DNA from: Patescibacteria group bacterium
GTDB taxonomy: Bacteria; Patescibacteriota; Patescibacteriia; JAHIZJ01
Assembly: GCA_018814765.1 (NCBI GenBank)
Contig: JAHIZJ010000027.1
Span: 1-39,321, forward strand
Length of the DNA stretch: 39,321 nt
Reading direction: 5' to 3'
In this document: piece by piece, positions 24,740 through 30,171 of the stretch
How positions within the stretch are numbered: position 1 is the first letter of the stretch
Layout of the letters: each line of letters opens with the position of its first letter
Notes under the pieces: generated by a model
Seen by the model: the letters and a program-made list of their open reading frames with translations, nothing else
Told to the model about the DNA's origin: nothing
The model's database searches: none
Translations under genes and position numbers: made by a program

Positions 24740-25321
24740 ATGATCATATCCATATCAGGTAAGCCGGGCTCAGGAAAAAGCTCAGTTGCTAAGGCGATTG
24801 CTAAAGAGTTTGGACTGGAACGATATTACATGGGCAGACTTTGGCGCGAGAAGGCTCGTGAGAAAGGCTTAACATTAGTTGAAGGGCTGATAGAAGGTGA
24901 GACAGACTCCGTTACAGACAAAGAAATAGATGACTATCAGATAAAGCTCGGTCAGACCAAAGATGATTTCGTTATAGAAGGCCGAACCTCATTTCACTTC
25001 ATTCCTCAATCATATAAGATATACCTGGATGTGGAGCCGGAAGAAGGGGCCAAGCGCATCTGGGGCGACCTGCAAAAGAACGCAGATAAAAGAAACGAAG
25101 CTCAGCAATTAAACAGCGTTGACGATGTGATAAAAAGCGTAGCCAGACGTATTAAAAGCAGTCAAATACGTTACCGGAAGTACTACAATATAGATGTATT
25201 TGATCCAAAAAATTATGATTTTTATCTGGACACAACTAAGATAGATAAGCCAGGTGTGATAAAAAAAGTTATTGAACAAATAAAAAAAGATGTGGTCACT
25301 AGAATCAAAGAAAGGAATTGA
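24740..25321 (+). CDS. Cytidylate kinase-like nucleoside monophosphate kinase
   Basis: 193 residues. The P-loop SGKPGSGKSS (about 5-14) starts a small kinase fold like archaeal-type CMP kinase, with YYMGRLWREKAREKG as the acceptor region, DDFVIEGRTSFHFIP as Walker-B-like strand and the Arg-rich RRIKSSQIRYRKYYNIDV lid/LID-following segment. It would phosphorylate (d)CMP using ATP in the cytoplasm. It overlaps the next gene by 32 bases. Confidence 0.8.
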   Translation: MIISISGKPGSGKSSVAKAIAKEFGLERYYMGRLWREKAREKGLTLVEGLIEGETDSVTDKEIDDYQIKLGQTKDDFVIEGRTSFHFIPQSYKIYLDVEPEEGAKRIWGDLQKNADKRNEAQQLNSVDDVIKSVARRIKSSQIRYRKYYNIDVFDPKNYDFYLDTTKIDKPGVIKKVIEQIKKDVVTRIKERN

Positions 25322-26876
25322 TAAACAGGCGGTAATCGCGCTAATTGGGGGGTTTTTTGTTATTGTGATAATTATAGTCCTTACTGTTGTTATTGAAAAA
25401 AATAATCCATTTAATGGTCAGGGGGCATTTGATCGTTTAATACCCAGCCAGTCACAGTTGTATATACACGCTGATATAAGCAGGATACCAAAAGATAGTG
25501 AATCTGTTGCTAACGAGGAGCTGACTAAGTTTGTCCTAAATGGTGAGCAGGAGCTAAAAAGGCTGATGCCCGGAGGGATTAACCTGACTGTTTTTGCATC
25601 TAATCTTAACAATGAATTGGCGTTTTTCAAGTTAACCGAAGGCTATGGCTTATTGGTCAGAGTAAAATCAGAGGAGCAGTTTCGTGAGTTTATGGCTGAT
25701 TCGTTTAAGGATGAAATAAAGAGTGAGGAGTTTGAAAGTACCAAGATAGTTACACAGACCGCAGATAGTTCTATCAACCTTAGTTGGGCTCGGGTGAATA
25801 AAAAAGTTTATATAATTGCCAGCACAACTGATGTAATTAAAGAAGTTATTTCCGTTGATAAGAAAAAGACAGAGTCGATCGAAGCGCGAATCAAAGTATA
25901 TAATCCCGGTGCTCATTTTATCTATGGGATAGCTAACCCAAAACAATTGGTTGGTACATATAATATTCTTGATTCTATCACTGAGATAGGTTCACAAAGT
26001 CTGAATGAATTCACTGAAACATATTTTGACCTGGACACAAAGGATGGAATGCTTTTTGGAACGATCAGTAATTATGCACCGACCTTGCTAGAAAGATTAA
26101 CTGCCGGTGACTTGCCAAACATTTACAGACAGTCAAGCAGGTACATGCCGGATGATTTGAATCTGGCTTGGCTAAATACAAATCCCGGTGAGTTCATTGA
26201 TAATCTGCAGATGTTTCAACTAGCTTTTCCCGACGAACTGAACTTTGACTGGCCAGACTTTGTAAATCAGGCGCTGGGCTTTGATTGGGAAAAAAACATC
26301 TTGCCTCTTCTTGACATTCAGACCGATATATATGTTGCTCCAACGGATCAGCCAGATGATATGAGTAAACCATTTGTTATTTCCTTTATCCCAGACGAGT
26401 TGGAACAATTGACGGAGACACAAAATAATTTAGAAGCAGTCCTAAGACAAGTACTGGGAACTATGTATCCCAGTCGCTTAGAAAAGATATTATCCGACGG
26501 TAGTAGTGTAGTTGAGCTACTGCCAAATCCCCAAGCAGGTGAGACGACACAGTATCAATATGAAGATCAAACGATTGATAATCTTTGGCGAATTGATTTA
26601 CCGAAATCCGAGATGGTCATAGTTTTTGGTCAGCTGGATAAGCGGATAATCTTTTCGAACTCTACAGAGTTGGTTGATTCTATAATCCAGCAATCGGCTA
26701 TAGATACTGAAGCCACACCCAAGTGTCTGGAAGAAATAAAAGGCAGTCGTCTAATCGTTCTGGATAATAAGCAGATTGAGTCACTAAATTCGCTCGGGCA
26801 TAACATTTCACATCTCTATATAGGAGACGGAATCACAGATAATAAGATTTTGTTAAATTATTGTCTGGAATTCTAA
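25290..26876 (+). CDS. Membrane-anchored protein, DUF3352-like
   Basis: 528 residues. One hydrophobic segment (about 14-36, AVIALIGGFFVIVIIIVLTVVI) anchors a large outside region beginning FDRLIPSQSQLYIHADI, which resembles the opening of DUF3352 proteins where a short 'drop of strands' pattern is repeated (compare FYAHADxxR-like openings). Repeat units with FFKLTEGYGLLVRVKS and YIIASTTDVIKEV support a tandem alpha/beta layout. No enzyme motif is seen. The start overlaps the kinase gene, suggesting coupling. The family assignment is tentative. Confidence 0.55.
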   Translation: MWSLESKKGIDKQAVIALIGGFFVIVIIIVLTVVIEKNNPFNGQGAFDRLIPSQSQLYIHADISRIPKDSESVANEELTKFVLNGEQELKRLMPGGINLTVFASNLNNELAFFKLTEGYGLLVRVKSEEQFREFMADSFKDEIKSEEFESTKIVTQTADSSINLSWARVNKKVYIIASTTDVIKEVISVDKKKTESIEARIKVYNPGAHFIYGIANPKQLVGTYNILDSITEIGSQSLNEFTETYFDLDTKDGMLFGTISNYAPTLLERLTAGDLPNIYRQSSRYMPDDLNLAWLNTNPGEFIDNLQMFQLAFPDELNFDWPDFVNQALGFDWEKNILPLLDIQTDIYVAPTDQPDDMSKPFVISFIPDELEQLTETQNNLEAVLRQVLGTMYPSRLEKILSDGSSVVELLPNPQAGETTQYQYEDQTIDNLWRIDLPKSEMVIVFGQLDKRIIFSNSTELVDSIIQQSAIDTEATPKCLEEIKGSRLIVLDNKQIESLNSLGHNISHLYIGDGITDNKILLNYCLEF

Positions 26877-26991: not shown

Positions 26992-27020
26992 TTGACAAGA
27001 TGCTTTTTCTTTGCTATACT
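26992..27020 (+). promoter_or_regulatory. Consensus promoter of the structured RNA
   Basis: TTGACA, exactly 17 bases, TATACT. It is the strongest promoter match in the window. Transcription should begin near 27027. Confidence 0.85.
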
Positions 27021-27026
27021 CCTAAT

Positions 27027-27434
27027 AGAATCATTGACAACCCAAATACTTCATGCCGGAATGGTGTGAAATACCACTTCCACGTAGCGCGGAATTGGAT
27101 TTTCATACTGTTCGAAATAACTGCCCTTCCGACGGGCTGAAAACCAAAACAAATTCCCCCAAAACAGGGGAAAACAAAAACAAAAAGGTGTTTTTCTGCG
27201 ACTTCGGTTAAAGTGAAATACCGTAAGAACGGTGTGAAGAGCTGCACATTTGATAGTCGGATATAATGTGTGTAAGAGCATTGAACGGAATGCCTTGCGC
27301 TGGCTATACGAATACCTCATTTGAAAAAAGTTAAATTGGGTGCTCGTATAGCCGGACTCGGCTTATTTAATGCTTTGGGCGTAGCTAGCCATTTACTAAT
27401 CGTTTAGGGCTTGAACTACGCCCTTTTCTTTTTG
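27027..27434 (+). ncRNA. Unidentified structured RNA of about 400 nt
   Basis: The stretch lies between a consensus promoter and a strong terminator and has no convincing gene. Stems include GGAA.GGT/ACC.TTCC (about 27058-27081), GCCC/GGGC near 27123-27137, CCCC/GGGG near 27155-27169, ACCG/CGGT near 27220-27233, and a perfect 10-bp GGCTATACGA/TCGTATAGCC (27302-27353). GTGAAA followed by CCGTAAGAACGG, and later CGGCTTAT, recall conserved RNase P RNA blocks in the right order, but the essential GAGGAAAGTCC block is missing. A 52-codon frame (27053-27211) lacks a ribosome site. It could be an independent RNA or an lspA leader. Confidence 0.6.
27377..27434 (+). terminator. Terminator of the structured RNA
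   Basis: GGGCGTAG pairs with CTACGCCC over a long loop and runs into TTTTCTTTTT. It lies about 45 bases upstream of lspA. Confidence 0.75.
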
Positions 27435-27479
27435 TTGTAATTCGTTGTAGAAATTATATACTTGTTGTAGGAGATTATT

Positions 27480-27947
27480 ATGTTAAATCCATTTCGTTAT
27501 CCCGTATTACTTATTTCAGCTTGTGCTGTTTTATTTTTCTCTGATCGGTTGGGTAAGCTTATATCACAACTAAATGTCAACACCAACGTCATAATAAATA
27601 AGTGTTTTGCTTTTGGATATTATCCAAATCAGGGAATAGGCTTTGGGATACAGATGAACAAAACGATCATTATTGTTACGTCGGTAATAATCATTTTAGG
27701 ACTAGCCGGTTGGCTAGTTCATGTATGGAATAAAGAATATGCAATGCAAGCTTGGGGCATCAGCTTTATTGTTGCGGGAGCTACTAATAATTTGTTAGAC
27801 AGAATATTTTTTGGTCATGTGATTGATTATATAAAGTTATTTGATTGGTCACTGTTTAACCTAGCTGATGTAATGATAGTTGTTGGATTGATCATTGTTT
27901 TGTTGGGACTGCATAAGCCTGAAAAGAATGACTTTACAAAAAATTAG
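27480..27947 (+). CDS. lspA: Lipoprotein signal peptidase
   Basis: 155 residues with four membrane segments. LspA (signal peptidase II) cleaves the signal peptide of prolipoproteins after lipid attachment. The two catalytic aspartates are Asp107 in AGATNNLLDR and Asp130 in FNLADVMI, and the NQGIGFG loop corresponds to the conserved NxGxAF block. GTAGGAG precedes the ATG. The sequence is divergent (SDRLGK for the usual DQxTK). It follows the structured RNA and ends in its own terminator. Confidence 0.85.
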   Translation: MLNPFRYPVLLISACAVLFFSDRLGKLISQLNVNTNVIINKCFAFGYYPNQGIGFGIQMNKTIIIVTSVIIILGLAGWLVHVWNKEYAMQAWGISFIVAGATNNLLDRIFFGHVIDYIKLFDWSLFNLADVMIVVGLIIVLLGLHKPEKNDFTKN

Positions 27948-27967: not shown

Positions 27968-27996
27968 AGCAGGCGAGATTTGTGGCCTGTTTTTCT
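27968..27996 (+). terminator. lspA terminator abutting the comM start
   Basis: CAGGC pairs with GCCTG and is followed by TTTTT; the comM start codon lies two bases after. Confidence 0.65.
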
Positions 27997-27997
27997 T

Positions 27998-29506
27998 ATG
28001 CCTGCAAAAGTATATTCAGCCGGAGTGGTCGGTCTCGATGCCCAATTGATTGAAGTTGAGGCGGATATTGCTTCGGGTTTACCCAAATTCCTAATTGTTG
28101 GTTTACCTGATATTGCAGTACAGGAAGCACGCGAAAGAGTACGATCAGCAATTAGAAATAGTTTACTGCGCTATCCTTCAACTCGGGTAACAGTTAACCT
28201 GGCTCCAGCCGATATAAAAAAAGAAGGGCCGGCTTTTGATTTGCCAATGGCTGTCAGCATTCTGGCCGCCTCGAGTCAGATACCTATAATACCGCCACGT
28301 TCATTGTTTATAGGTGAACTATCTCTTGAAGGAAGACTACGACCGGTAAATGGTATCCTCTCTGTGATGCTGGAGTGCCAGAAAAAGGGCTGGCAAAGAA
28401 TCTTTCTTCCGTCTAGTAATGCTACCGAAGCTTCGATTATTAAAGACGTAAAAATCTACCCTGTAGAAAACCTTAACCAATTAATCAATCATTTGATTGG
28501 TGCTGGTAAAATCAGTCAATACAAGGCCGGTCCATCAGTTTATCAGGCACCTGTATTCTCCGTGGATTTTAGTCAGGTAAAGGGACAAGAACAAGCCAAA
28601 AGAGCACTAACAATTGTTGCAGCTGGTGGCCACAATGCACTACTATCAGGTCCACCAGGCTCTGGTAAAACATTATTGACCAAAGCTTTGGTGTCCATTT
28701 TACCTGAGATGGAGCTGGAAGAAGCTCTTGATGTTACGCGGATCTACAGCGTTGCCGGATTAATACAGACAGACCAGCCACTTTTACGGCAAAGACCATT
28801 CAGGTCACCTCATCATACTGCTTCAGCTGCTTCGCTAATCGGCGGTGGCCGGATACCCCGCCCTGGTGAAATCTCATTAGCTCATAGGGGGGTTCTCTTC
28901 CTAGATGAATTACCGGAGTTTCCCCGTTCGGTTCTGGAAAGTTTACGCCAACCTCTTGAAGAAGGTGTGATATTTGTCACCCGGGTACAGGGTAGCTTGA
29001 AATTCCCGGCAAAGTTTATTCTCATGGCAGCCCAAAATCCCTGTCCCTGTGGATACTATGGCGATCGGGACAAAGAATGTTCCTGTACCCCTTGGCAGAT
29101 TTCTAAATACAATAAAAAGATCTCCGGACCGTTACTTGATCGGATTGATCTGCATTTGAGAGTGTCTCGAGTAAAGTTCGAAGAGCTAACCTCTATTTCA
29201 CCTGCTGAGAAGTCTGACAGCATACGAGAAAGGGTAGTTCAAGCACGCCAAGTACAGTTAAAAAGATTTAAGAACGCAAAAATATTTACAAATACAGAGA
29301 TGGATTCAAGAGGCATTAAAATGTTCTGTCAGATTGATACAGTTAGTCAAGAAATCTTACACAAGGCCATGAGTCTACATCAATTATCTGCCCGTTCCTA
29401 TACCAGGATCTTGAAAGTGAGTCGTACAATCGCGGACCTGGAGGGGAGTGAGAGTATTAAATCACGACATATTGCTGAGGCGCTTCAATATCGAGCGGTT
29501 GATTGA
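27998..29506 (+). CDS. comM: YifB/ComM family AAA+ ATPase (Mg-chelatase-like)
   Basis: 502 residues. The N-terminal ChlI-like domain begins VYSAGVVGLDAQLIEVEADI and includes PAFDLPMAVSIL and IGELSLEGRLRPVNG. The AAA+ core has Walker A LLSGPPGSGKT, RPFRSPHHTASAASLIGGG, Walker B HRGVLFLDELPEF, a Cys cluster in AAQNPCPCGYYGD, and the C-terminal domain LSARSYTRILKVSRTIADL. ComM is a hexameric helicase that promotes branch migration during natural transformation. The ATG sits directly after a hairpin T-run and lacks a clear ribosome site; a start at 27980 is a weaker choice. Confidence 0.92.
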   Translation: MPAKVYSAGVVGLDAQLIEVEADIASGLPKFLIVGLPDIAVQEARERVRSAIRNSLLRYPSTRVTVNLAPADIKKEGPAFDLPMAVSILAASSQIPIIPPRSLFIGELSLEGRLRPVNGILSVMLECQKKGWQRIFLPSSNATEASIIKDVKIYPVENLNQLINHLIGAGKISQYKAGPSVYQAPVFSVDFSQVKGQEQAKRALTIVAAGGHNALLSGPPGSGKTLLTKALVSILPEMELEEALDVTRIYSVAGLIQTDQPLLRQRPFRSPHHTASAASLIGGGRIPRPGEISLAHRGVLFLDELPEFPRSVLESLRQPLEEGVIFVTRVQGSLKFPAKFILMAAQNPCPCGYYGDRDKECSCTPWQISKYNKKISGPLLDRIDLHLRVSRVKFEELTSISPAEKSDSIRERVVQARQVQLKRFKNAKIFTNTEMDSRGIKMFCQIDTVSQEILHKAMSLHQLSARSYTRILKVSRTIADLEGSESIKSRHIAEALQYRAVD

Positions 29507-29619: not shown

Positions 29620-30171
29620 ATGAAAAACAAGATTTATTACAACAAAGACCATTTTTATTTCTTGACATCCACCATCAGTGGTCATCGTATTATATTTGAT
29701 CGAGATAATTACGCAACAATAGTTATCGATAGTTTGAAGTATCTTCGTGAAAAAAGATATATGAAATTATATTCGTTTGTACTCATGCCAAACCACATCC
29801 ACATTTTACTGAAAGCTATAGATGGATCAACAATTAATGAAATTGCACAAAAACTTCATTCCTATACAGGACACGCACTTCTTGCTCAAATGCGAAATGA
29901 AAAAGATTGGGGATTATTAAAGTATTTTAAAGAGTTTGCTTATTATTCAAAGAACGATCGTAGCCATTGCTTCTGGTATGATGCATTAGTAAGAAGTATA
30001 GTTGACGAAAGATCAGTATTTAGATTTATGGAATATATACATTCAAATCCTTTTAACAAAAAGTGTGAGTTAGTCAAAGATAGATCGGAGTATAAATACT
30101 CAAGTGCTTGTTACTATGATTCGGGTATACAGTCGATTATAGAGGTGGATGATGTGAGGGAAGAGTGTTAA
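29620..30171 (+). CDS. REP-associated tyrosine transposase (RAYT), second copy
   Basis: 183 residues of the Y1 transposase family. The HUH motif is canonical here: LMPNHIHILL with His59 and His61. The later FWYDALVRSIVDERSVFRFMEYIHSNPFNK block is the family's typical C-terminal region and supplies tyrosine candidates. It is not closely similar to the RAYT at 351-872, so the two elements arrived separately. A perfect 13-bp inverted repeat precedes it; I found no matching structure downstream. The gene appears intact. Confidence 0.82.
   Translation: MKNKIYYNKDHFYFLTSTISGHRIIFDRDNYATIVIDSLKYLREKRYMKLYSFVLMPNHIHILLKAIDGSTINEIAQKLHSYTGHALLAQMRNEKDWGLLKYFKEFAYYSKNDRSHCFWYDALVRSIVDERSVFRFMEYIHSNPFNKKCELVKDRSEYKYSSACYYDSGIQSIIEVDDVREEC

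Follow-up and report, generated by a model that had tools for sequence, protein, structure and literature searches.

The locus and its transcription signals

The stretch of DNA analysed here, henceforth the window, comprises 39,321 nucleotides from the genome of a Patescibacteria group bacterium (contig JAHIZJ010000027.1 of assembly GCA_018814765.1). On its forward strand lies an RNA gene of about 400 nt (27027–27434) with its own promoter and its own terminator, flanked upstream by a gene for a 528-aa protein (25290–26876, plus strand) and downstream by lspA, coding for signal peptidase II (27480–27947, plus strand; PF01252, E 9.5e-25). Farther along are a Mg-chelatase/ComM-like gene (27980–29506) and, downstream of it, an IS200-like transposase (Y1_Tnp) gene (29620–30171).

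A sequence-only reading of this DNA had described a gene-free, heavily structured unit delimited by a consensus promoter with a 17-base spacer and by a terminator, and the present analysis bears this description out. The sigma-70 promoter (26992–27020, plus strand) consists of TTGACA (26992–26997), a 17-nt spacer, TG before the second hexamer and TATACT (27015–27020); it scores 11/12 and predicts a transcription start near 27027. The intrinsic terminator (27377–27434, plus strand) is built of an 8-pair stem (27377–27384 with 27416–27423), a loop of about 30 nt and the T-rich tail TTTTCTTTT. It was missed by our consensus scan because of this long loop (the rule allows loops of 3–8 nt), and the same long-loop type was found again in homologues. 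The loop (about 27385–27415 in the window) measures some 30–40 nt in the window and its homologues; in many lineages its apex is rich in A/T, and it is perhaps a binding site. At the other end of the RNA, a motif like GTTC/GAACATTGAAAA recurs within the first 10–25 nt of many homologues, other classes included (about 27030–27042 in the window); no pairing partner was found for it.

No protein gene fits the interval 27027–27434, the sole open reading frame of at least 80 aa being an antisense frame (27051–27320). A protein-coding reading was rejected, as this 89-aa frame has no counterpart in the homologous locus L003, where no antisense frame of at least 50 aa spans the homologous stretch. The predicted fold of the RNA has an energy of −139.8 kcal/mol, compared to −97.5 ± 5.2 in 100 dinucleotide shuffles (z −8.2), none of which was equally stable.

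Homologues across the Patescibacteria

When relatives were searched at the DNA level, two clear homologues came to light within the same family, together with a weak one from another. From the three family sequences we built a covariance model (R1), judged its matches by eye and built a second model (R2) from nine sequences, which in a first pass matched 79 of 287 class genomes at E 0.1 or better. This is not an exact count, since the weak matches are mixed and some near E 0.1 are doubtful; 66 class loci among the R2 matches were examined further. A third model (R3), which includes the closing helix P1 described below, also matched genomes of other Patescibacteria classes, and the full set of hallmarks is present in 16 of these matches (L085–L095, L097, L099, L100, L101 and L104). 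Within the class, at least 66 genomes have a homologue, and in other classes of Patescibacteria at least 16. These counts are lower bounds, because a deeper search of 20 formerly negative class genomes recovered four more (L112, L113, L114 and L117). Low-scoring matches without hallmarks were judged false by eye (L013, L017, L019, L072, L073, L102, L103, L105, L107, L115, L116, L119, L120 and L121).

The class of the window genome and of the main homologues is most likely ABY1. The core of L083, from Candidatus Kuenenbacteria, which we take to belong to GTDB class ABY1, is shared with L021. A strict pattern scan of a collection of bacterial and archaeal genomes returned three records, all from Patescibacteria, and no matches to the RNA were found in viral contigs, plasmids or phages. 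There is usually one copy per genome.

A conserved core with a kissing pseudoknot

From 5′ to 3′, the order of parts is promoter, W/X region, strand Y, hairpin P3, an A-rich strand, hairpin P5, the motif ACCNNAA, strand Z, hairpin P6, the 3′ domain P7 and the terminator (all coordinates on the plus strand). Strand Y (27100–27113), with the conserved core ACTGTTC, forms the 5′ side of the closing helix P1, and strand Z (27227–27240; GAACGGTGTGAAGA; GAACGGT...), preceded by the conserved ACCNNAA, forms its 3′ side; the two make 14 bp. Within P1 lie hairpin P3 (27123–27137), with the loop TCCGAC (27128–27133), the conserved A-rich single strand AAAACAAAAACAAAAA (27171–27186) and hairpin P5 (GGT...ACC, 27187–27222), supported by covariation. 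The A-rich strand is preceded in the window by a family-specific hairpin, P4 (27154–27172), found in the nearest relatives only. After Z comes hairpin P6 (27245–27270), whose loop GTCGGA (27256–27261) is complementary to the loop of P3, and then P7 (27278–27373), a long imperfect hairpin defined by the fold and by comparison within the family.

Covariation supports this structure at two depths. In the nearest-family alignment (three sequences), 26 of the 96 predicted pairs showed a compensatory change. The main test used 46 sequences and an alignment model that contained neither P1 nor the kissing pair. Here 86.7% of the cells were paired, versus 63.3 ± 0.8% after shuffling, and changes on both sides were seen at 41 of 42 pairs, all six kissing pairs included. 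The covariation score was 0.546, against 0.190 for shuffled alignments and at most 0.105 with the partners slid by one to three columns. The counts for P3, P5 and P6 are biased toward structure because these hairpins are part of the model, a bias from which P1 and the kissing pair are free. P1 was 86% paired and showed two-sided changes at each pair; the kissing helix, part of no search model, was 84.4% paired and showed them at six of six pairs. The heavy structure claimed from the window is therefore one that relatives keep by covarying, and covariation was a check that the sequence-only reading had itself proposed.

The two loops change together across lineages: TCCGAC/GTCGGA in the window, TTCCGAG/CTCGGAA in G023, GACTAGG/CCTAGTC in G036 and GCTCAC/GTGAGC in G026, with TCCAACC/GGTTGGA, TCTAACC/GGTTAGA, CCGATCAC/GTGATCGG and TCAAGTC/GACTTGA in other classes. 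This comparison shows a predicted kissing pseudoknot between the loops of P3 and P6. When loop pairing was scored automatically on regions that had not been trimmed, the excess was only modest (5.9 versus 5.2 bp), as the signal was swamped by chance A/T matches; the aligned count is the better test. Six loci, mostly of family f54 (L020, L021, L022, L027, L029 and L033), have a near-constant P3 loop GGAG...CGAG and a P6 loop TCGGCCC; in them the two loops seem to make their kissing contact in another way.

Alternative folds

Strand X (27059–27071) resembles Z and can form a hairpin, P2, with Y, making it a rival of Z for the same partner. Its pairing with Y averages −17.7 kcal/mol, compared to −11.0 when the X strands are taken from other loci. 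A strong X:Y helix (−17 kcal/mol or better) was found in 32 of 59 loci, most of the remainder having a weak one, and base-pair probabilities computed without pseudoknots favour X as the partner of Y in 31 loci, Z in 24. By this comparison, Y is predicted to pair equally well with X in about half of the class loci examined.

For the window RNA the two folds lie only 3.7 kcal/mol apart, fold A (W:Z with X:Y) at −139.8 and fold B (W:X with Y:Z) at −136.1. Fold A includes the 10-bp long-range pair that had been noticed in the window alone and is indeed there, between strand W (27049–27058) and 27230–27239. W:Z is clear only in the family of the window, where it includes one compensatory change; as a general outer helix it was rejected, since over the whole set of loci it did not stand out clearly from the control. 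Y:Z is backed by covariation across the class. If both folds are used, the choice between X:Y and Y:Z would allow the core to open and close.

Gene neighbourhood and the possibility of a cis-acting leader

The promoter and terminator of the RNA are retained while the neighbouring genes vary. An upstream promoter scoring at least 11, equivalent to that of the window, was present in 59 of 65 homologous loci (1.0 expected from shuffles), with an almost constant 17-nt spacer. The distance from start to terminator ranged from 305 to 553 nt (median 381.5, 62 loci), some ends having been mis-set by the automatic scan.

The usual gene order is a DUF3352-like gene, the RNA, dksA/traR and lspA. The upstream protein of the window has no Pfam match of its own and shares a single HMM with 30 further open reading frames from upstream of the RNA, one of which matches PF11832; a DUF3352-like gene of this kind was upstream in 31 of the 77 loci examined, one of them in another class. 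Downstream, lspA was found in 46 of 66 class loci, 36 of which also have dksA/traR. Other next genes in the class were those for RNase HII (rnhB, five loci), a PolyA_pol/HD protein (cca-like, two) and ribosomal protein S2 (rpsB, one), and in other classes dksA/traR (two loci), LGT, guanylate kinase and others.

This arrangement bears on a suggestion already made from the window, that the RNA is an attenuation leader for lspA. In its broader form, the RNA would sense something in cis and the terminal hairpin would attenuate whichever gene follows (lspA, dksA/traR, rnhB or others). In 61 of 63 loci the terminator does stand shortly before a co-directional gene, lspA is the frequent neighbour, and a strong separate promoter between the terminator and the next gene is present in only 14 of 66 loci, all of which speaks for a leader. 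Against it, the next genes are unrelated, those 14 loci do have a strong promoter after the terminator, and the RNA is about 400 nt long and usually present once per genome. No conserved antiterminator was found either: the 5′ arm of the terminator pairs with its own upstream RNA no better (−11.4 kcal/mol) than with that of other loci (−11.6). We therefore regard a leader, for lspA or more generally, as unlikely. In the window itself, a promoter-like match (9/12) at 27435–27462 possibly gives lspA a weak promoter of its own.

Comparison with Rfam and other identities

Against Rfam 15 (4227 families) no family reached its gathering score at the locus; the window stretch, searched to E 10, gave chance matches only, and 20 homologous loci searched to E 0.5 gave no family, the single match at E 0.034 being to a microRNA model and falling well short of that model's cut-off. 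Neither the window nor the 20 loci matched 6S, OLE, GOLLD, ROOL, raiA, T-box or riboswitch RNAs, as far as Rfam holds them, and the tmRNA model (RF00023) and the SRP RNA models (RF00169, RF01854) had no match at the locus. The Rfam searches proposed in the sequence-only reading, the RNase P and tmRNA models included, thus identified nothing at the locus, and that reading's other option, a new RNA family, is strongly supported by the combination of no Rfam match, homologues across classes and covariation. We found no description of the RNA in the open-access literature, a search that covered neither subscription papers nor most preprints.

A regulator of the 6S kind that binds RNA polymerase would suit the neighbour dksA/traR, which lies on the downstream side in 36 of the 66 loci of the class and in two loci of other classes, and the strong promoter as well. 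Synteny by itself is weak evidence, however, neither the window (E 10) nor the 20 loci (E 0.5) matched 6S in Rfam, and the pseudoknotted multi-hairpin body differs from the single long hairpin with a central bubble of 6S RNA, so that we consider such a role improbable.

The signal recognition particle (SRP) gave a result of separate interest. Of 23 relatives none had a detectable Ffh M domain (PF02978), and of 380 Patescibacteria genomes one did (14 of 14 controls were positive); contamination is possible in the sole positive genome, G555. The bacterial small SRP RNA was detected in 0 of 57 relatives and the large SRP RNA above cut-off in 0 of 28, the window genome likewise having no SRP RNA above cut-off. 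The literature searched, as far as its text was accessible, contained no statement on a missing Ffh M domain or SRP RNA in Patescibacteria. An identity of our RNA as SRP RNA was rejected, as the locus gave no match and the Ffh M domain, too, was undetectable in the relatives examined. This result raises the interest of whatever RNAs the phylum conserves, but it is not evidence that the present RNA replaces SRP RNA. A conserved RNA of such a size could form the core of a replacement particle; that ours goes back to the ancestor of Patescibacteria as a core component, in place of a universal RNA machine since lost, is in our judgement very improbable.

The several gene neighbourhoods might recall a selfish or mobile RNA element, but the usual single copy, the lack of an inserted open reading frame, the mostly conserved synteny and the empty searches of plasmids, phages and viral contigs make such an origin very improbable. 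A very divergent RNase P RNA, similar in size and suggested from the window by GTGAAA/GTAAGA-like words and the CGGCTTAT block, is refuted, because the genome has a separate rnpB (C130:5200–5701; 132.9 bits, cut-off 100), as the sequence-only reading had thought worth checking, and the conserved blocks are missing: the covariance model RF00010 has no match at the locus to E 10, CR-I to CR-V are not kept in the homologues, and CGGCTTAT, which sits in P7 of the 3′ domain, already differs among the nearest relatives.

A probable housekeeping RNA and its place among known RNAs

The explanation that we favour, with a probability of about 0.72, is that the locus is a stand-alone gene for a non-coding RNA of the housekeeping type, which forms a family of its own, is widespread in Patescibacteria and probably acts in trans. 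Sequence comparison shows a conserved core in which P1 closes a domain containing P3, the A-rich strand and P5, and the P3 loop pairs with that of P6. Transcription would be strong and constitutive, and the RNA would act as a compact body rather than as the leader of the next gene, probably as the core of an RNA–protein particle. Distribution, promoter, low copy number and the compact conserved core are the reasons for reading it as constitutive and trans-acting. As to partners, dksA/traR as a recurrent neighbour might point to RNA polymerase, and lspA and LGT to the membrane.

Patescibacteria are among the largest bacterial groups, tiny in cell size and mostly uncultured. An RNA kept across several of their classes and driven by promoters among the best that a genome can have likely serves a basic task. 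With the alignment and consensus structure it can be looked for directly in metatranscriptomes already available, and in cultured members should one prove to have a homologue.

Several known RNAs share features with it. tmRNA is similar in size, in having a pseudoknot and in an A-rich stretch, but the tmRNA of this genome is encoded elsewhere (91.4 bits). Attenuation leaders and riboswitches likewise end in a terminator before a co-directional gene, but differ in the points given above (unrelated next genes, no conserved antiterminator, usually a single copy). The closest likeness in kind is to the large structured non-coding RNAs of bacteria such as OLE, ROOL, GOLLD and raiA, which stand alone, fold intricately and are widely distributed. 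These are RNAs of obscure function, hundreds of nucleotides long (e.g. PMC12286853, PMC11706538). Our RNA differs from them in matching no Rfam family, in belonging to another bacterial group and in having its own A-rich strand and P3–P6 kissing core. The kind, a large structured bacterial non-coding RNA, is thus known; the family, outside Rfam and with its own predicted core architecture, is new.
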